Source of the DNA: Candidatus Sumerlaeota bacterium
GTDB lineage: Bacteria > Sumerlaeota > Sumerlaeia > Sumerlaeales > Sumerlaeaceae
DNA: 64,000 nucleotides
NCBI GenBank assembly: GCA_026398535.1
Contig: JAPLSQ010000073.1
Location: 1 to 64,000 of the forward strand
Direction of reading: 5' to 3'
Shown here: positions 31,420 through 39,400 of the stretch, piece by piece
Layout of the letters: each line of letters opens with the position of its first letter
How positions within the stretch are numbered: position 1 is the stretch's first letter
The notes under the pieces: model-generated
What the model saw: the letters and a program-made list of their open reading frames with translations, nothing else
What the model was told of the DNA's origin: nothing
Databases searched by the model: none
Position numbers and translations under genes: made by a program

Positions 31420-31737
31420 ATGAACCGATGGGACAACCATGCGCCGTCCGGGGGGCTGTGTTGCCGGGCCAGGCTCGAGCCGCGCAACATACAATATCTT
31501 TGCAGTATCATCGAAGGCCATGAAGGCATGGGCATCATTCGGACGATTGACCGCCGCGATGGAATCGTTGAAATATGGTTTTCTCCCTTGATGCAGGGGG
31601 AAATTGATGATTTTCTGCGCGCGTTGATGTGCGAAATGGAGATTCGCATCGGCCCGCCGCGCCTGCTTGACGCGGAGGGCAATTCGAAGGAAACAGACTC
31701 AAACGAGAGACGCCGAGCCGGCAATGGCCGCGTCTAA
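31420..31737 (+). CDS. DUF4911-like small protein
   Basis: A 105-residue cytosolic protein. The core (residues 20-78) reads LEPRNIQYLCSIIEGHEGMG then IIRTIDRRDGIVEIWFSP and EIDDFLRALMCEMEIRI, the pattern of DUF4911, a small alpha/beta family with no known function. The tail is polar (NSKETDSNERRRAGNGRV). The gene lies between the LssY-like gene and the O-antigen ligase, with gaps of 13 and 10 bases, pointing to cotranscription. The family often sits beside unrelated genes, so the context says little about its role. Confidence 0.55.
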   Translation: MNRWDNHAPSGGLCCRARLEPRNIQYLCSIIEGHEGMGIIRTIDRRDGIVEIWFSPLMQGEIDDFLRALMCEMEIRIGPPRLLDAEGNSKETDSNERRRAGNGRV

Positions 31738-31747
31738 AGGATCGTTA

Positions 31748-34402
31748 ATGCCAGCGCCAACATTTCATAATCAGCCGCGGCGCGCCGCGGCGGGAGCCGC
31801 CGCCCGGCGCATCTTGACCGAACAAGAGAATTTTTACTCGTTCGAGTGGCTTCTGCTGTTCGCCACATTTGCCGTCATCGTCCTGATCTACTATTTGTTC
31901 ACGCCTTACACACACCAGCTTGACGAGATCAAAAATGTCCTGCTGATGTCGTTGCCGCCGTTCCTGTTGGCCTTCGTTGTATGGAAAGCCGACCTCCTGC
32001 GGATGAGCTGGCGCACCCACGCATCGACCTTCCTGGTCGGCCTGTTCGTCCTGTCCATGATTATCTCCTATCTTCTTAATCCCTACAAAATGATCGCGGA
32101 GCGCGTGGTGTGGTTCCAGGTTGGCTGCGCCACGTTCACGGTCATATTCGCATGGTTCATGGACACCGAGAGCAAGATGCGCAAGGTCATGATGTTTTTT
32201 GTCCTGCTGTCATTTGGCTCCGTGGCCATCGGACTCTTCATGTTCGCGGGACGCGGATTCACCGATGCCATCTACCAGGCCATGCTAAGCAGTCCCGGTT
32301 GGCGCCGGAATCCCGAATGGATCACGCTCTTCTACACCCTCAAGTCGTCCAACGAAATGTATTCGACGATCCTCAACCCCGACTTCTATGCGGCCTATCT
32401 GCTCATGATGCTTCCCCTGCCGTTGTCGATGTTTTTCGTTGAGGAACACATCGCCTTCAAAATTCTCGCCGTCATCACGTTCCTGCTCATGAATGTCTGC
32501 CTGTTTTTCACCAACTCCAACGACTCATTCATGGCGATCACCTTTCTGACCTACCCCCTCTACTTCTTTCTCGGCTTTCGTTATGTGAAAACATGGAACC
32601 TCACGTGGAAGTTCCTCGCCACTTTTTTCATTTGCTCGGCGGTTCTGGCTTTGACGTTGTTTCTGTTGATGCTGCCCAAGCTGTCGATGACATGGGATTT
32701 CAAGGCGGCGGCGCTGGAGGGGCGCAAGGTGTTGTGGCTGGGCGGATTCTGGCCCTGGCTGTACCGCAACGATTTCACGATGAATCACCTCGACTGGATC
32801 GCCATCATTTTCGGCACGGGACCGGGCGGTTACCGGTTTTATTTTCCCGTGTTCCGCAGGTGGGATTTCTTCGACAACCAGATCAACAACGTCACAACCT
32901 TCGGACACAACTGGTACTTGGATGTGTTGCTGGAGTATGGCGCCGTCGGCCTGCTCATCTTCCTGTGTTTTTACGCGCGGGTGCTTTACGACGGCATCCA
33001 ACAGATCCGTCACACGGCAAACCGGTCACACCAGTTTTACCAGATGGCGGCGGTGACGGGGCTGGTATCCATCGCGCTGCAGAATTTTTTCAGCCCGAAC
33101 AATCGGTGGGCCGTCTGCGGGATGATCTATTGGTCGCTTTTCGGGCTGAGCATGGGGCTTCATCACTTAGATACGCCGGGACTGGACAATGCCGCCGTCA
33201 GGGCCTCCTCGCCGCGCCGGCGCCAGTTCGCCAACTTCATTCGGTATGCGCTTTACGCCCTTACGGCGCTCTTCATCGTGCGCAGCGTGCCGCAGGGTAT
33301 TTATTACTGGCCCGCCGCCAGGGCCAACAGCGATGGTCTGCGCGCCATGGAGGCCGCCGAAAACTATAAGGAGAAGGAGAAGGAGATGCTGCTCGAGCGC
33401 GCCCGCGCATCCTTCGTGGAAGCCATTCGCCTCAACCCCACATTTGTCACATCCTACTACAAGCTCGCTCACGTTTACAATACGCTGCGCGACACAAACA
33501 AGGCCATCGCCCACTACAGGGTGTTGGACGCCATCAACCCCCACTATTCCGAAATCCATCTCAACCTCGGCATCATGTCATGGGCGCGCTCTGCGGACAT
33601 GACAGGAACCGAGCGCCAGAAGGAGCTGGAGACCTCTTTCAATGAAATCCGCGAGGCGGCGCGACAGTCAGTGAAACCCAATGTTCAGTGGACGGCGGGG
33701 GCCATCGGTCAAGAACTGGCCTCGCTGTATGCCACCGAAGGGAAAAAGGATGAGTCGCTCAAGGTCTACGAAAAGGTGAAACCGTTCTACACGGCGCTTA
33801 TTGAATACCAGCCGCTGCTCGATGAACAAAAGAACGACAAGAAACATTACTACCAGCGCGCCGAAAAGGAACTTGTCAGGCTGGCCTCACTGACCAATGA
33901 TAACCCGCTTGCGGAAAAGATGCTCAAGCAGATGTACTTTGAAAATCCCGACCAGTCCGAGTATCTCGACGTCCTGCTCAACTTTTATGACAGGCAAGGC
34001 AAGACAAAGGAAAAGGTCGAATTCTTGAAAACAGTCAGCGAGAATGCCCCGTTGGAAGTGCGTCTGCGCAACATGCTCGCCGCAGCCTACCTGGAGCAGG
34101 GCGGCATGGAAAAACACATTGCTGAATTGCGGCGGGCCGAGATTCTGGAACCAAAGAACATGACGACACTTTCGGGGCTTTATCTTGCCTATCAATCGGC
34201 CAGCGACGCGAACAAAACGCGCGAGTACAAGGACAAGCTTGCGGCTGTCGGCGTGAATGCGGACTCGCTGACATCGGCTTCCGTGAATTCAAAAGCGACC
34301 TCAATGCCCGCGGAGATGCTCAAGTCCATCGGCGTGGAAGATCCAATCATCGAAACGTCTCCAACGCCCGCGCCCGCCGAAACTTCATCGACAACACAAT
34401 GA
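31748..34402 (+). CDS. O-antigen ligase/polymerase-type protein with TPR tail
   Basis: An 884-residue inner-membrane protein. Residues 25-500 hold about a dozen transmembrane helices with the periplasmic loop typical of the Wzy_C/WaaL family (GFWPWLYRNDF ... GTGPGGYRFYFPVFRRWDFFDN and NNVTTFGHNWYLDVLLEYGAVG, about residues 330-400). Such proteins join glycan chains to lipid A-core or polymerise them. Residues 530-840 are TPR repeats (SFVEAIRLNPTFVTSYYKLA, AIAHYRVLDAINPHYSEIH), and the end is a Ser/Thr/Pro-rich tail. ATG 31748 follows AAAGGA with good spacing. The ligase-plus-TPR layout is common in PVC and related phyla. The acceptor is unknown. Confidence 0.85.
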   Translation: MPAPTFHNQPRRAAAGAAARRILTEQENFYSFEWLLLFATFAVIVLIYYLFTPYTHQLDEIKNVLLMSLPPFLLAFVVWKADLLRMSWRTHASTFLVGLFVLSMIISYLLNPYKMIAERVVWFQVGCATFTVIFAWFMDTESKMRKVMMFFVLLSFGSVAIGLFMFAGRGFTDAIYQAMLSSPGWRRNPEWITLFYTLKSSNEMYSTILNPDFYAAYLLMMLPLPLSMFFVEEHIAFKILAVITFLLMNVCLFFTNSNDSFMAITFLTYPLYFFLGFRYVKTWNLTWKFLATFFICSAVLALTLFLLMLPKLSMTWDFKAAALEGRKVLWLGGFWPWLYRNDFTMNHLDWIAIIFGTGPGGYRFYFPVFRRWDFFDNQINNVTTFGHNWYLDVLLEYGAVGLLIFLCFYARVLYDGIQQIRHTANRSHQFYQMAAVTGLVSIALQNFFSPNNRWAVCGMIYWSLFGLSMGLHHLDTPGLDNAAVRASSPRRRQFANFIRYALYALTALFIVRSVPQGIYYWPAARANSDGLRAMEAAENYKEKEKEMLLERARASFVEAIRLNPTFVTSYYKLAHVYNTLRDTNKAIAHYRVLDAINPHYSEIHLNLGIMSWARSADMTGTERQKELETSFNEIREAARQSVKPNVQWTAGAIGQELASLYATEGKKDESLKVYEKVKPFYTALIEYQPLLDEQKNDKKHYYQRAEKELVRLASLTNDNPLAEKMLKQMYFENPDQSEYLDVLLNFYDRQGKTKEKVEFLKTVSENAPLEVRLRNMLAAAYLEQGGMEKHIAELRRAEILEPKNMTTLSGLYLAYQSASDANKTREYKDKLAAVGVNADSLTSASVNSKATSMPAEMLKSIGVEDPIIETSPTPAPAETSSTTQ

Positions 34403-34444: not shown

Positions 34445-35770
34445 TCAGCCGGAAACGATGACAATCCGCGCGGCGCCGGCTGGTTGGACGCCTTCGCGGA
34501 CAAACGCGATGCTGGCAAAACTGACAAGGCAGTTTTTGTCTTCTGAATTGCTTTGCTGATAGGTGAGCACGGTTGGCCTGGCGCGGCCGCGCAGAGCCTC
34601 CATAGCGCAATAAATTGTGCCGATGCTGCAGACATTGCGGGCGTTGCCGTCGGCGCGGAACGATTCGAAGAAGCGGTCGGGATCGCCCGATTCGATGGCT
34701 TTGAGCGTCTGGCGGTCGCCCGATTCGATCTCTTCTTCGCGTTGAGTGCCGTTCTTGCTCTCGTCGCCGAATTGCGGCCCGCAATGCGACAAATCCACGC
34801 CGCCGATGATGCCGACCGTGCCGTCGCGCTCGCCGATAACCTTGTGCAACGCCGCGCAAAATGCGCCCGCCTCCTCGTCATCGCGCGGGGAACACTCGCC
34901 GCCAAGCAGGTCATCGAAACTTCCGACGAGGATGGGCACGATTTTAGGCTGGGGGCCGTCTCTGAAAACATGACGCAGGTACGCGGCCTGGAGCTCGATG
35001 GAGTGTTCGGAGGCGTGCGCATACTCGTCGCTGAAAAGCTCTCCGCTGTAATTTCTGGCGATATCGTCCAGCACATCCGCGTCTGTCTCAACCTGCCCGA
35101 AAGGTGTCTCGAAGCTTTTTCGGGTGGCTGCGAAGCGTTGGGAAATGGGGTTGTGGCATGTGCCGAGCACGATCCATGTGCGCGCGGCGATGCCATGCTC
35201 GTGCAGCGCCTGGTAGGCCCACGCATAGGCGTGGCCGCCGCGCTGGTAGTCGATGTGCGGCGAGAGAATGCCGGACACGGAGGCGGGGGGCAGATCGAGG
35301 CGCTCGGGCGGGGCCATCGAGCCGGCGCGGTGGCGGCGCATTTCACTGGCAAGCTCTTTGATCATCGCCAGCCGGTCGACGCCTTCCATGCGCAAGGCGC
35401 TGGCCTGGCGCGCGGGCGCCCGCAGAAAGTCGTCACGTTTTCTGCGAAAGGCGTCGAGGAACCGTTCGGATTGTAGCAGGAGCGCCTCGTCGAACTGACG
35501 CGCGACCGCCTCGAACATGCTGGCGGAGACGAGTTGCCCGGTAAGCAACGTGACGCGTTCGGCCATTTTTGCGAAGGTCGTTTTTCCGTCGGCCAACTCG
35601 ATGAAAATGAGCACAAGCGGATTGGGGACGATGACGGCCGGCCCCGGAAGCACACCGACGGGATCGCGCACCAGGAGGAGATCTCGCTCCTCAAGGCGCG
35701 CAGGAATCAATTCAACCGGGCGCACCATTGGGGTTTCGACCGGGTAAACGGGCAATTCGTCATAAATCAT
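34445..35770 (-). CDS. AmmeMemoRadiSam system protein B (Memo family) with PqqD-like N-terminus
   Basis: A 441-residue cytosolic protein. The C-terminal 270 residues are Memo-like: ILSPHIDYQRGG (about residue 169), HSIELQAAYLRH and GVDLSHCGPQFG give the conserved His ligands of the dioxygenase-like fold. The first 140 residues look like a PqqD-type winged-helix domain (LVLIFIELADGKTTFAKMAE ... FDEALLLQSERFLDAF), the peptide-binding fold used in radical-SAM peptide maturation. Usually Memo proteins of this type sit beside an AMMECR1 protein and a radical-SAM protein; neither is adjacent here. The reaction is not known. It converges on the O-antigen ligase gene with a 42-base gap. Confidence 0.88.
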   Translation of the reverse strand: MIYDELPVYPVETPMVRPVELIPARLEERDLLLVRDPVGVLPGPAVIVPNPLVLIFIELADGKTTFAKMAERVTLLTGQLVSASMFEAVARQFDEALLLQSERFLDAFRRKRDDFLRAPARQASALRMEGVDRLAMIKELASEMRRHRAGSMAPPERLDLPPASVSGILSPHIDYQRGGHAYAWAYQALHEHGIAARTWIVLGTCHNPISQRFAATRKSFETPFGQVETDADVLDDIARNYSGELFSDEYAHASEHSIELQAAYLRHVFRDGPQPKIVPILVGSFDDLLGGECSPRDDEEAGAFCAALHKVIGERDGTVGIIGGVDLSHCGPQFGDESKNGTQREEEIESGDRQTLKAIESGDPDRFFESFRADGNARNVCSIGTIYCAMEALRGRARPTVLTYQQSNSEDKNCLVSFASIAFVREGVQPAGAARIVIVSG

Positions 35771-35940
35771 TTCATCCTGCTTTCGTGTATCATCCCAGTA
35801 TGTTTATCCGAATACGAAGCCGCCATGGGTGAATTCAAACCATGATGATAATGGGCCGGCCAGACTTGGGCCATTAATAAGCAAACCCGCGACGGCGGAC
35901 TGTTGAATTGTTATATGATATCGTCTCTGTTGCGCATATA

Positions 35941-35956
35941 CTTGCATTGTTGCAAG
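35941..35956. promoter_or_regulatory. 16-bp inverted repeat upstream of GH43 gene
   Basis: CTTGCATTGTTGCAAG is a perfect 6-4-6 palindrome 35 bases before the chosen ATG of the glycosidase gene. Its TTGCA/TGCAA half-sites and position suit an operator for a sugar-responsive repressor. No regulator gene is adjacent, so this is inference. Confidence 0.35.
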
Positions 35957-35991
35957 GTTCATGGCCTATTCTTGTGCTGGGAATGATAAAT

Positions 35992-37728
35992 ATGTCACGA
36001 GGACTGTGTTCGGCAATCATAACAATGCTCAAGCGGTTTGCGCTGGGCGGTTTGTTGCCATTGGCTGCGCACATGGGCGCCAGCCCAAAAGGCTATGCCG
36101 CGGGAGTGACGACTTATGTCAATCCGCTGGATGTTCTTATTGCCGACCCATACGCCTTATATCATGATGAAGTTTATTACCTTTACGGCACATCCTCCCC
36201 ATGGGGGTTCAAGGTCTGGTCGTCGCCGGATCTTGTCAACTGGCGTTACCGTGGAATGGCGTTTAACGCGACGCCGAGTTCGTGGGGGAAAAACCGTTTC
36301 TGGTCGCCCGAAGTGATCGCGAAGAACGGAGTTTTCTACATGTTCTACAGCGCGGGCGGGAGTCCCAATGACCTTATGCGCATCTGCGCGGCCTCGGCAA
36401 CTTCGCCGCTTGGCCCGTTCAAGGACATCGCGACGCCACTGTTCGATGACGGCAAAGCGTGGATTGACGCCCATGTCTTCACCGACACCGACGGGGTGTC
36501 CTATCTTTACTGTGCGCAGGATATATCATATCCGCCTGACACCAAGAGCGAAATATATGTGGCGCGCTTGAGAAGCGACATGAAGGCGCTGGACACCACA
36601 CCGACGCTGTGCATCACGCCAAGCGCTCCGTGGGAATTTCCCGGCGGCGGTGTTAATGGCTGGAACGAAGGCCCGTTTGTGTTCAAGCACAACGGCGTCT
36701 ATTACATGACGTACTCGGGCGACGTCTATTCGAATCCGGGCTATTCCGTGGGTTATGCCACCGCAACGAGTCCGTTTGGACCATGGAAAAAGTACAGCGG
36801 AAATCCCATCCTGAAGAAGAATGCGTTTGTATCGGGTCCCGGCCACATCAGTATTGTCCGTTCTCCCGATGGCTCGGAATTGTTCATCGTCTATCATACC
36901 CACCAGCAGGCGTCGGGCGGGGACGACCGCCAACTTGCCATCGACAGGCTTGCGTTTACTGCCGACGGCGCCGGCGGGCCCGATATGCTGTCCGTTCCCG
37001 GCGGACCAAGCTATGGACTGATGAATTATCCGTCCGGCGACTCCCCGTTTCCCTTTGGCACAAGCGACAATTTCAACAGTACCACGCTCGACCGCACCCG
37101 CTGGATCATTTTCAATGAGGAATCCGGCTATTGGCGTCTTGCCAATGGCCAGCTTTCCATCACCACCCAGGAGGGCGACATCTATTCCAGCCGTGCTGAC
37201 GCGAGCAATATTTTTCTTCAGTACGCGCCCCCGGGCGGCTTCAGCGCAACGGTTAAAGTGTCCTTTGTGCCACAAGCCAACTATGAGCAGGCGTTCCTCA
37301 TTCTGTGGCAAGACCATAAAAATTATGCGCGTTTTTCGACTCTGTGCGCAGACGGATTGAAATTTGAGATCATCCGGGAAACCAACGCGACACCCGTAAC
37401 ATTTCAGACGCCCAACTCAATTGGCTCGCCAGTTTATCTGCGCATCGACTGCGGCGGATCGGTGATGCGTTTCCATGCAAGCCCCGACGGCTCCCGCTGG
37501 ACACAGATCGGTCCGGATTACCCGCTGACCTTGTTGGAGGTCAAAATCGGCCTTGGAGCCATTGCCCCGGACAGCGGCGCGGCAAGGGAGGCGCTTTTTG
37601 ACGACTTCCGCATCACACCGTCGGCGCCCAGCAGAGTCGACGAGTGGATTCACTCCGGACGTGACAATATAAGATTGGGTGTAAATATTTCCGGCGAACC
37701 GATGAAACTGGTAAAGCAGGATGGTTGA
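35992..37728 (+). CDS. Glycoside hydrolase family 43 protein (exported)
   Basis: A predicted secreted glycosidase of about 578 residues, probably acting on arabinose- or xylose-containing polysaccharide. The N-terminus is signal-like (MLKRFALGGLLPLAAHM). The five-bladed propeller carries the GH43 acids: base Asp52 in LIADPYAL, Asp159 in WIDAHVF and acid Glu226 in GWNEGPFVF. Residues 360-560 form a concanavalin-like C-terminal domain (DNFNSTTLDRTRWIIFNEES ... FHASPDGSRWTQIG), as in beta-xylosidases. Several in-frame ATGs exist (35983, 35992, 36025); 35992 has GGGA at a usable distance. The end overlaps the start of the next gene by eight bases. A palindrome lies upstream. Confidence 0.85.
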   Translation: MSRGLCSAIITMLKRFALGGLLPLAAHMGASPKGYAAGVTTYVNPLDVLIADPYALYHDEVYYLYGTSSPWGFKVWSSPDLVNWRYRGMAFNATPSSWGKNRFWSPEVIAKNGVFYMFYSAGGSPNDLMRICAASATSPLGPFKDIATPLFDDGKAWIDAHVFTDTDGVSYLYCAQDISYPPDTKSEIYVARLRSDMKALDTTPTLCITPSAPWEFPGGGVNGWNEGPFVFKHNGVYYMTYSGDVYSNPGYSVGYATATSPFGPWKKYSGNPILKKNAFVSGPGHISIVRSPDGSELFIVYHTHQQASGGDDRQLAIDRLAFTADGAGGPDMLSVPGGPSYGLMNYPSGDSPFPFGTSDNFNSTTLDRTRWIIFNEESGYWRLANGQLSITTQEGDIYSSRADASNIFLQYAPPGGFSATVKVSFVPQANYEQAFLILWQDHKNYARFSTLCADGLKFEIIRETNATPVTFQTPNSIGSPVYLRIDCGGSVMRFHASPDGSRWTQIGPDYPLTLLEVKIGLGAIAPDSGAAREALFDDFRITPSAPSRVDEWIHSGRDNIRLGVNISGEPMKLVKQDG

Positions 37729-38608
37729 AACCGCAGATGCAGGAGATTCGACGTTGATCAGCGCCCCCCGCTTGAGCATCATCATTCCTGTTCGCAATGA
37801 ACAGCACACAATCACCAGCCTGTTGCGCTCGCTGGCGCGGCAGGACATGCTGTCGGAGACCCAGGTCGTCGTTGTTGACGGGCGCAGCGAGGACGCCACG
37901 CGCGACGTCATCAGCGGCTTCCCCTTTGTGCGCCTTGTCAGCAGCGAACCGGGACGCGCGCGCCAGATGAACGCCGGGGCGGGGCACGCCCTGGCTCCCG
38001 TGCTGTGGTTCCTGCATTCGGATTCGACGCTGTCCGAGCGCAATTGCATCAACGCTATTCTTGGCGCGCTCGCGGATCCCGCGGTTGCGGGCGGCGCGTT
38101 TCGTTTCCGCCTGCGCGGCGACGATGCTTACTATCGTTTCGTCACCGCGCTCGTAAATCTGCGCTCGCGGCTGTTCCATCGTCACTATGGCGACCAGGGG
38201 ATTTTTACGAAGGCTGATGTGTTCAGGGAAATCGGCGGTTTCCTCGAGGATGAGCCGTGCGAAGATCTTGATTTTGTGCTGCGTTTGCGCCAGCGCGGAC
38301 GGTTTGTATTGCTCGACCAGGCGGTCGAAACAAGCGCGCGCACATGGCAGAAATATGGCAAGTGGCGCACCACGATGTGGCACATCGGCGAGTGGTTGCG
38401 TTTTGAGTGGCGCCGTCTGACATCTCCGCGAAGCGCCGAACCCAGCCAGCTTCCCGAGCCGGAAATGCCATCTGAAACCGCTAGGGGGGGGGCGGCGCCC
38501 GAACCGGTCGAATTGCGCGAAACCGGCGCCGGTATTGCCGCCCCTACGCTCCCTTCGGCCTCGAGCGCTCCGCCGCCACCGCCAGCTGCTCCCGCCCCCA
38601 TGCCATAA
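37721..38608 (+). CDS. Family 2 glycosyltransferase, rSAM/selenodomain-associated type
   Basis: A 295-residue GT-A enzyme: RLSIIIPVRNEQ at the start, VVVDGRSEDATRD (nucleotide site), GRARQMNAGAGHA (about residues 78-90), LHSDSTL as the DxD-like metal motif, GGAFRFRL, YGDQGIFTK and GGFLEDEPCEDLDFVLRL. This set fits the TIGR04283 group (rSAM/selenodomain-associated transferase 2), whose donor and acceptor are unproven. The last 50 residues are a Pro/Ala-rich tail that begins at a run of nine G (38484-38492), so the tail may depend on reading frame at that tract. Translation is coupled to the GH43 gene by an eight-base overlap. Confidence 0.82.
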   Translation: MVETADAGDSTLISAPRLSIIIPVRNEQHTITSLLRSLARQDMLSETQVVVVDGRSEDATRDVISGFPFVRLVSSEPGRARQMNAGAGHALAPVLWFLHSDSTLSERNCINAILGALADPAVAGGAFRFRLRGDDAYYRFVTALVNLRSRLFHRHYGDQGIFTKADVFREIGGFLEDEPCEDLDFVLRLRQRGRFVLLDQAVETSARTWQKYGKWRTTMWHIGEWLRFEWRRLTSPRSAEPSQLPEPEMPSETARGGAAPEPVELRETGAGIAAPTLPSASSAPPPPPAAPAPMP

Positions 38609-38635: not shown

Positions 38636-39400
38636 TCAGCGCCCGTGCGCCAGACGATCAGCAAGCTCCGGTGGCAGACCCTGCAGTCTGATTTCCTTCT
38701 GCGCCCCGTCCAGGTCATACTTCACGCGGTGAAACTGCAGCGATCCGGCGTCGAGATCTAAGATGGTAAAGCAGGAATCGGGATTCCTGTCGCGCGGCTG
38801 CCCGACACTGCCCACATTGACAATGTAGCGGCAACTCTTCTTGATTTGAATCACTGGGGTGCATGGGCCGTTGAGGCGTCCGTTCTCGTTTTCCACGACG
38901 AAAGGCATGTGCGAGTGGCCGATGAAACAGAATCGGTGGGTGAAATGGCGGAAACTTTCACGGGCGTCGCCCATGGTGATGATGTAGGACCACTCGTGGG
39001 GATTGAGCGGCGAGGCGTGAACGAAGAGCATGCCGAAAGCCTCGATGTCCAGCGGCCGCTCGCGCAGCCAGCGCGCGTTTTCGGGCGTGAGAGCCTCCTG
39101 CGTCCATATGATGGCGCGCAGCGCGGCGGGATTGAATGTCCCTGAGTCGGTCAAGTCGAGCGCCGCGAAATCATGGTTGCCGGCGATTGTGGATATCTGG
39201 CGTTCGCGCAAAATATTGACGCATTCGTTCGGATTGCCGCCATAGCCGACGACATCACCGCAACAAATCATCACGTCCGCGCCAAGGGAGGTCATCTGTT
39301 CCAGAACGCTTTCCAGCGCGTGCAGATTGCCGTGGATGTCGGAGAACACACCGATCCGCCGCGGCGTTCCCTCAATAATGTGCATTGTTTTGTCTATCAT
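38636..39400 (-). CDS. Metallophosphoesterase, YfcE-like
   Basis: A 254-residue cytosolic phosphoesterase of the calcineurin superfamily, with the metal ligands in order: FSDIHGNLHALE, CGDVVGYGGNPNE, AGNHDFAALD, LFVHASPLNPHEWSY and FIGHSHMP. Next comes NVGSVGQPRDRNPDSC, typical of the YfcE-like group that binds two metals. Members cleave phosphodiesters of unknown natural substrate. The gene converges on the glycosyltransferase gene and lies downstream of the membrane transferase on the same strand, with a 125-base gap. Confidence 0.9.
   Translation of the reverse strand: MIDKTMHIIEGTPRRIGVFSDIHGNLHALESVLEQMTSLGADVMICCGDVVGYGGNPNECVNILRERQISTIAGNHDFAALDLTDSGTFNPAALRAIIWTQEALTPENARWLRERPLDIEAFGMLFVHASPLNPHEWSYIITMGDARESFRHFTHRFCFIGHSHMPFVVENENGRLNGPCTPVIQIKKSCRYIVNVGSVGQPRDRNPDSCFTILDLDAGSLQFHRVKYDLDGAQKEIRLQGLPPELADRLAHGR

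Follow-up and report, generated by a model that had tools for sequence, protein, structure and literature searches.

The window analysed here, a 64,000-nucleotide stretch of a Candidatus Sumerlaeota genome, encodes a 441-residue protein (P0001) in which a domain resembling PqqD and the RiPP recognition elements (RREs) precedes a Memo domain. Comparison of this RRE-Memo fusion with its relatives revealed the two predicted folds, conserved metal-ligand positions, an acidic residue (D174) particular to the fusions and a single branch in the Memo tree; no neighbouring gene common across lineages was found, nor any tendency to co-occur with either AMMECR1 or the radical-SAM protein of AmmeMemoRadiSam systems. 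As the best explanation, which we hold tentatively, we propose that RRE-Memo proteins are self-contained metal-dependent oxidases or hydroxylases, in which the N-terminal domain would dock a polypeptide encoded elsewhere and the two partner proteins would not be needed.

The architecture itself is already in print and is not new. RRE-Memo (PF01875) fusions are the subject of one sentence in Bregman et al. 2025, where they are described from high-confidence AlphaFold predictions in the updated RRE-Finder data set as “unprecedented in RiPPs” (PMC12710340); our protein has the same two domains, and is likened to theirs by architecture alone. The accessible portions of that article contain no family description, and no clade, active-site or co-occurrence analysis of RRE-Memo. 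It was the only source of a mention of RRE-Memo in the portions of the literature that were searched, and Burroughs 2019 (on Memo-AMMECR1, cited in PMC7159879) may hold an earlier one. Added here are the spread of the family, its single branch, the invariance of acidic D174 next to a metal ligand, a recurrent Cys to Asp swap at the third ligand position, and evidence for separateness from AmmeMemoRadiSam.

The fusion gene and its Memo domain

The fusion gene is an uninterrupted open reading frame from ATG to stop on the minus strand. It is not a chance frame, because near-full-length homologues (43-61% identical) are found in 17 genomes that share its family or class, and single matches covering both domains in 55 of 147 genomes (a count that leaves out G014 and G083, where a single match never covers both domains). 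The closest named relatives, among the best 80 of at least 552 related stretches, are Candidatus Sumerlaeota genomes; the figure of 552 is not a family size, as lone Memos are not separated out. Relatives from named strains include those of Aquisphaera insulae JC669 (L073) and Paludisphaera soli JC670 (L116). A search of the plasmid collection returned zero matches. The near neighbours within the window look unrelated to the fusion. The features are as follows (coordinates in the window, strand, description).

31667-34402, plus: TPR protein with an O-antigen-ligase-like part (ligase match below its cut-off)
34445-35770, minus: gene of the RRE-Memo fusion P0001 (441 aa); uninterrupted frame, homologues along its whole length
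34493-35419, minus: Memo domain, residues ~118-426 (PF01875, TIGR04336; MEMO1 7kq8 at Z 30.7)
34628-34630, minus: C381, equivalent of MEMO1 C244 (profile alignment; Cys in 75 of the 79 rows of A2, Asp in the other 4; codon confirmed)
35153-35155, minus: H206, equivalent of MEMO1 H81 (profile alignment; 79/79 in alignment A2; codon confirmed)
35249-35251, minus: D174, acidic, specific to the fusion clade (D in 79/79 in A2; codon confirmed)
35255-35257, minus: H172, equivalent of MEMO1 H49 (profile alignment; 79/79 in A2; codon confirmed)
35420-35467, minus: connecting helix, residues 102-117 (predicted in both models)
35468-35737, minus: PqqD/RRE-like domain, residues ~12-101, βββ-ααα (AlphaFold2 models, VIA-align, homologue profile matches, hhalign)
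35908-37728, plus: GH43 glycosidase, near neighbour of the fusion gene
37721-38608, plus: glycosyltransferase, near neighbour
38636-39400, minus: metallophosphoesterase, near neighbour

An earlier note, made from the DNA letters, had placed a Memo protein here, and the family models bear it out: PF01875 matches residues 161-421 (E 4.9e-36, 124.8 bits against a curated cut-off of 27) and TIGR04336 matches with E 2.2e-32 (112.4 bits against a cut-off of 26). The AlphaFold2 model of the whole protein, built with 79 sequences, has a mean pLDDT of 94.7 and a pTM of 0.92, and its residues 117-426 align with MEMO1 structure 7kq8 over 278 residues. LigB-type proteins, among them small-molecule dioxygenases, match the Memo part of the model at Z 14-19, and the LigB fold is recognisable in it (Z 16.2 to 1bou, 17.4 to 3vsh and 17.5 to 7txy).

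MEMO1 binds iron and copper (PMC11081632, PMC9477392), and the portion of the former that was available gives H49, H81 and C244 as the ligands. Profile alignment to 7kq8 puts these at H172, H206 and C381 of the fusion, so that all three predicted metal-ligand residues (two His, one Cys) appear to be present, and puts D189 and H192 of MEMO1 at D326 and H329, each of which is found in 79/79 rows of alignment A2. This alignment has 79 rows, L087 (frame broken) and L111 (incomplete) being left out. The ligand set differs from the two His plus Glu of the extradiol dioxygenases, as the third ligand in the fusions is Cys or, in a few, Asp; in LigB it is Glu according to the same source (PMC11081632). 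The 2024 eLife abstract of that study calls the primary molecular function of MEMO1 unknown, and dioxygenase activity was undetected with the standard substrates tried (PMC11081632).

Position 381 is Cys in all 22 lone or AMMECR1-fused Memos compared, and Asp in 7/87 fusions, for which the tree needs two changes or more. It is also Asp in 5/5 checked proteins of the family of genome G057, at least two pairs of which look near-identical. The swap was seen at L052, L070, L091, L114, L030, L031, L034 and L164-L168, the last five being the G057-family proteins. An Asp here would restore a two-His-one-carboxylate site, and such swaps are what continued metal binding at this position would predict.

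The N-terminal domain

The first 140 residues had been described in the earlier note as PqqD/RRE-like. The likeness stands, in predicted fold, structure comparison and profile; the length does not, as the domain covers only residues ~12-101 and the Memo domain begins at ~118. Modelled alone, residues 1-150 gave a mean pLDDT of 90.1, and in both this and the whole-protein model there are strands at 20-26, 29-35 and 45-47 followed by helices at 51-59, 66-77 and 83-95. The accessible part of PMC12710340 defines RREs by βββ-ααα order, and an intact domain of this order is predicted in both models of the fusion. The outcome that would have told against the earlier description, a fold unrelated to PqqD, is thus not what was predicted, and RREs and PqqD are among the structural matches.

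With the isolated domain as VIA-align query, lasso-peptide RREs with bound leaders are on top (6jx3 at Z 7.9 and 5v1u at Z 7.5), followed by the PbtF RRE (6.5), a Rickettsia methyltransferase domain (6.5), TigE (6.4) and PqqD (6.3), where rows differing by no more than 1 in Z count as tied. The alignment with 6jx3 takes in 82 residues of its 85-residue chain; its Z of 7.9 sits below the VIA-align caution limit of 8, and the whole model gives 8.2. Also among the nearest leader-bound RRE structures is 8t19. Foldseek with the N-terminal domain returned nothing at E≤0.001, its best match being PqqD 5sxy (E 0.035, probability 0.98); the VIA-align result is the clearer of the two.

In sequence, the relationship is detectable at the level of the family only. 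All PqqD models left the N-terminal part of the single fusion sequence unmatched, and a PDB sequence search with the single protein gave nothing useful. Among the 79 family members, at E≤10, PF05402 matches 15 (best 9.7e-5) and TIGR03859 matches 26 (best 3.6e-5), the window's protein not being among either set; ScmD-type matches occur in 20 and matches to the ApyI RiPP-binding model in 17. Comparison by hhalign of the N-terminal domain with an alignment of 30 PF05402 proteins, from loci of the search of 147 genomes, gave a probability of 92.9 and a score of 41.6 over 58 columns, against an average of 10.7 and a maximum of 17.9 for 100 column shuffles and 18.2 for a single reversed control. In the PDB, the full-length family profile recovers MEMO1, and the N-domain profile finds PaaA at E 0.06, in the company of troponin C and further matches at chance level. 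Homology of the domain to the PqqD/RRE families is therefore supported at family level, and on predicted fold, structure comparison and profile together the PqqD/RRE reading is right.

An N-domain profile (A3) run over 61 genomes found the fusions and two other proteins, both of a peptide-handling kind by their family matches. At L160 806-3166 (G048:C8; E 1.6e-12) there is a 787-aa frame whose start is not fixed; it opens with a PqqD-like part and also has one region of daptide-type intramembrane protease kind and one resembling HlyD adaptors. In the other, at L161 466-1029 (G021:C26; E 4.1e-5), a PqqD-like domain leads into what looks like the CxxxCxxC start of a radical-SAM protein, where the contig end cuts it off; genome G021 also carries an RRE-Memo fusion. 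The profile finds in the window's own genome the fusion alone, besides an E 0.63 match in a Memo-AMMECR1 protein, and PF05402 has zero matches there at E≤0.001.

Winged-helix DNA-binding domains have the same fold as PqqD and the RREs. A regulator that joins such a domain to a Memo domain sensing metal or redox state would agree with the weak HTH_47 matches in 12/79 members (best E 0.019) and with the Fur and PerR domains lower in the VIA-align list (Z 3.9-4.4), but by profile and by structure alike there are more matches to PqqD/RRE, and stronger ones, and we regard a regulatory role as highly improbable.

The pattern of conservation raises a different alternative. Before residue 90, the invariant or near-invariant residues of the domain are P14, R17, D36, P37 and G62, with D61 in 71/79; conserved positions fall in β1/β2 and the loops, and many positions of β3/α3 are variable. 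In known RREs the peptide cleft is formed by β3 and α3, and docking there by the fusion would follow that precedent. Variability of β3/α3 is contrary to a single conserved ligand, and the conserved face could instead pack against the Memo domain. The winged-helix domain may then be structural, dimerising, or position the active site, with Memo acting on a small molecule or handling metal. The better conserved β1/β2 and loops, the iron and copper binding of MEMO1 (PMC11081632, PMC9477392) and the small-molecule dioxygenases among the LigB-type relatives are consistent with this, while the profile of the domain is nearest to peptide-handling PqqD/RRE families and leader-bound RREs head its list of structural matches; on balance this alternative as a whole seems somewhat unlikely.

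Distribution, phylogeny and AmmeMemoRadiSam partners

RRE-Memo fusions are taxonomically widespread: among the best 80 of the related stretches, named loci come from 18 named phyla, with 5 loci lacking a phylum assignment. A tree was made of 87 fusion Memo domains (79 from A2 and 8 from alignment A1, which itself comprises 27 of 30 extracted sequences) and 22 lone or AMMECR1-fused Memos. The fusion Memo domains make up one side of one branch with support of 100/100 and in 100% of 200 bootstrap trees, in a tree that is unrooted, with bootstrapping not fully settled and three lone Memos on long branches. Residue 174, which stands two after the ligand H172, sets the fusions apart as well; it is Gly in 21 and Ala in 1 of the 22 lone or AMMECR1-fused Memos, and is Glu in 5/5 G057-family proteins (L164-L168, some of them near-identical). 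MEMO1 and AmmeMemoRadiSam protein B (TIGR04336) share the Memo fold and the metal-ligand positions with the fusion, which differs from them in its extra RRE domain, in D174, where the 22 sampled Memos have Gly or Ala, and in its own branch.

Retention of the fusion can be stable over a genus. Across 41 searched genomes of the family of G057, the gene is present in 18/18 of genus g52 and 1/1 of g143, and absent from 22 genomes in three other genera; in g52 it is stably retained.

That the fusion stands apart from AMMECR1 and the radical-SAM protein, as the earlier note had observed of the adjoining genes, holds for the whole contig (C92), on which neither gene occurs, and neither a neighbouring gene nor a short peptide common to different lineages was found by the fusion. 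Its stronger wording, a protein with no system partners, applies to adjacency only, as other contigs of the genome encode one protein that joins Memo to AMMECR1, together with two radical-SAM proteins of AmmeMemo type. There are two further Memo genes, one lone (C71) and one in the Memo-AMMECR1 protein (C73), inside which the only AMMECR1 of the genome is found. The two radical-SAM genes, on G000:C34 and G000:C119, are different from one another and both above the TIGR04337 cut-off, alongside the one AMMECR1. The Memo-AMMECR1 protein (G000:C73:5523-7190; L005 1381-3048) is 555 aa long, and its N-terminus resembles a signal peptide or membrane segment; it may therefore be exported.

Over the 147 genomes, the kind of search that the earlier note had suggested shows no association of the fusion with AMMECR1 or with the radical-SAM protein. 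AMMECR1 is present in 36/55 genomes with the fusion and 57/92 without it (Fisher p 0.73), and a radical-SAM match above cut-off in 39/55 and 61/92, respectively (p 0.59), p values that are rough because the genomes are non-independent samples. Fifteen of the 55 fusion genomes, 7 of them at least 90% complete, have neither AMMECR1 nor an above-cut-off radical-SAM protein; weaker radical-SAM matches occur in 8 of the 15 and none in 7. Genomes G057 and G123, both rated 100% complete, carry the fusion with neither partner above cut-off, their radical-SAM matches being sub-cut-off only. The fusion neither requires nor avoids AMMECR1 and the radical-SAM protein in this set, and in this lack of association it differs from the AmmeMemoRadiSam system.

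These counts bear on the possibility that the fusion is a diverged AmmeMemoRadiSam branch, served in trans even now by AMMECR1 and the radical-SAM protein. Both partners are indeed in its own genome and in 35/55 fusion genomes, and among 108 immediate neighbours there is one AMMECR1 and one AmmeMemo-radical-SAM-like protein (L076, 74.4 bits against a cut-off of 220). However, both partners are equally common without the fusion (56/92), the 15 genomes above do without an above-cut-off partner, 8 of them with weaker radical-SAM matches, the complete genomes G057 and G123 being of this kind, and for that system the window's genome already has a lone Memo besides the Memo-AMMECR1 protein. We consider work in trans with these partners very unlikely.

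Gene neighbourhoods and proposed function

Neighbour clustering, done for the 80 named loci and for 18 from the window's own class, found no partner common beyond related lineages. Picking the longest ORF was misled by antisense frames, recovering the family gene in 66/80 and 12/18 loci, respectively, and leaving roughly a fifth to a third of the neighbourhoods poorly read; other ORF-picking rules likewise gave nothing common across lineages. The second-largest cluster (20 ORFs from 17 loci) was considered as a conserved divergent neighbour and rejected, being mainly the antisense frame of the fusion gene itself: 15 of the ORFs overlap the family gene by more than 100 nt on the opposite strand and a sixteenth by 55 nt, which leaves 4 outside it. 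Most of the clusters that follow in size are general families at a distance from the gene (receiver/AAA in 10 loci, AAA+ in 8, others in 6 or fewer), with the receiver/AAA and AAA+ identities judged by eye from the first residues.

The commonest families of the 108 same-strand neighbours are hydantoinase B (5), then M19, ornithine cyclodeaminase/mu-crystallin, M20 and radical-SAM (4 each). We read these as repeats of a few related lineages, because the 520-aa and 319-aa clusters recur in the same five loci. In these related loci (L050, L051, L054, L056 and L067), conserved same-strand neighbours of ~520 aa upstream and ~319 aa downstream flank the fusion; for this pair the Pfam tally points to hydantoinase B/oxoprolinase and ornithine cyclodeaminase-like proteins. 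The four radical-SAM neighbours, which have the CxxxCxxC motif, comprise two HemW from one genus (L042, L043), a B12-type protein (L052) with weak, sub-cut-off matches to RiPP maturases, and the AmmeMemo-like protein of L076 (8729-9841), directly upstream of the fusion in a Deltaproteobacteria genome.

Short peptides accompanying the fusion, the other association that the earlier note had thought worth seeking, did not emerge beyond a few relatives: short ORFs within 3 kb are common to at most 4-5 of 79 loci, all related, in a search that fast-evolving or remote precursors escape and whose “inside larger ORF” flag also marks likely real ribosomal-protein genes. Near the fusion, no precursor or RiPP genes conserved across lineages were found, with part of the neighbourhoods misread by ORF picking. 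In this the fusion appears to differ from PqqD and the RiPP recognition elements, with which it otherwise shares fold, structural alignment and profile similarity. That no conserved peptide was found beside it speaks against a RiPP pathway of the usual clustered sort and in favour of a substrate from another part of the genome.

In a RiPP tailoring role, the RRE would hold the leader of a small precursor while Memo modifies the core, the precursor gene being remote, or nearby and unrecognised. The leader-bound RREs 6jx3, 5v1u and 8t19 as nearest solved structures, the inclusion of Memo-like fusions in the RRE data set in the available part of Bregman et al. (PMC12710340), and the single B12-type neighbour at L052 (1/108) speak for such a role. 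Against it are the restriction of shared short ORFs to a few related loci, in a search that remote or fast-evolving precursors would escape, the failure to find neighbours conserved across lineages and the want of a PF05402 match at E≤0.001 in the window's own genome, and we judge it quite improbable.

The self-contained oxidase or hydroxylase remains our tentative preference; metal loading, catalysis, polypeptide binding and the location of the substrate gene are the steps that we infer. The Memo/LigB-fold domain would bind one redox metal, iron or copper, through two His and one Cys. The built-in winged-helix domain of PqqD/RRE type, its docking role drawn from the precedent of RREs, would dock a polypeptide and carry it to the metal site, where it would be oxidised or hydroxylated. 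Its substrate would be a peptide or protein from elsewhere in the genome and not an adjoining precursor, and AMMECR1 and the AmmeMemo radical-SAM protein would be dispensable. To this extent the suggestion of the earlier note, that the fusion could be a peptide- or protein-modifying branch, may hold. Counted for the proposal are profile and fold homology, conserved ligands, partner independence, retention in g52 and the JmjC precedent discussed below. Counted against it are the variable β3/α3, the dioxygenase tests in which MEMO1 gave no detected activity, the Z of 7.9 (below 8), the empty Foldseek search at its threshold and the fold shared with other winged helices, along with the 35/55 fusion genomes that have both partners and the one AMMECR1 and one AmmeMemo-like protein among 108 neighbours.

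A bacterial Memo with its own domain of peptide-docking type suggests a polypeptide substrate, and RRE-Memo is testable as a single protein, free of AMMECR1 and radical-SAM partners. In a broader form, which we think unlikely, RRE-Memo proteins would be widespread single-gene metal-dependent oxidases, analogous to the ribosomal oxygenases, which across many phyla of bacteria act on some core polypeptide of the cell. If true, the docking domain would show that Memo proteins generally act on polypeptides, giving a first handle on the function of MEMO1.

The closest analogy outside RiPPs is with the JmjC ribosomal oxygenases (NO66, MINA53 and YcfD), in which an Fe(II) oxygenase and a winged-helix domain are likewise found in one protein. 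The resemblance is one of analogy only: their catalytic fold is of the JmjC/2-oxoglutarate type, which differs from Memo, and their winged helix is C-terminal. The role of the winged-helix domain in these oxygenases is called unclear in PMC6182338, and PMC12710340 reports fusions of JmjC with RRE-like domains. NO66 itself is found in the VIA-align list of the N-terminal domain, at Z 3.9.
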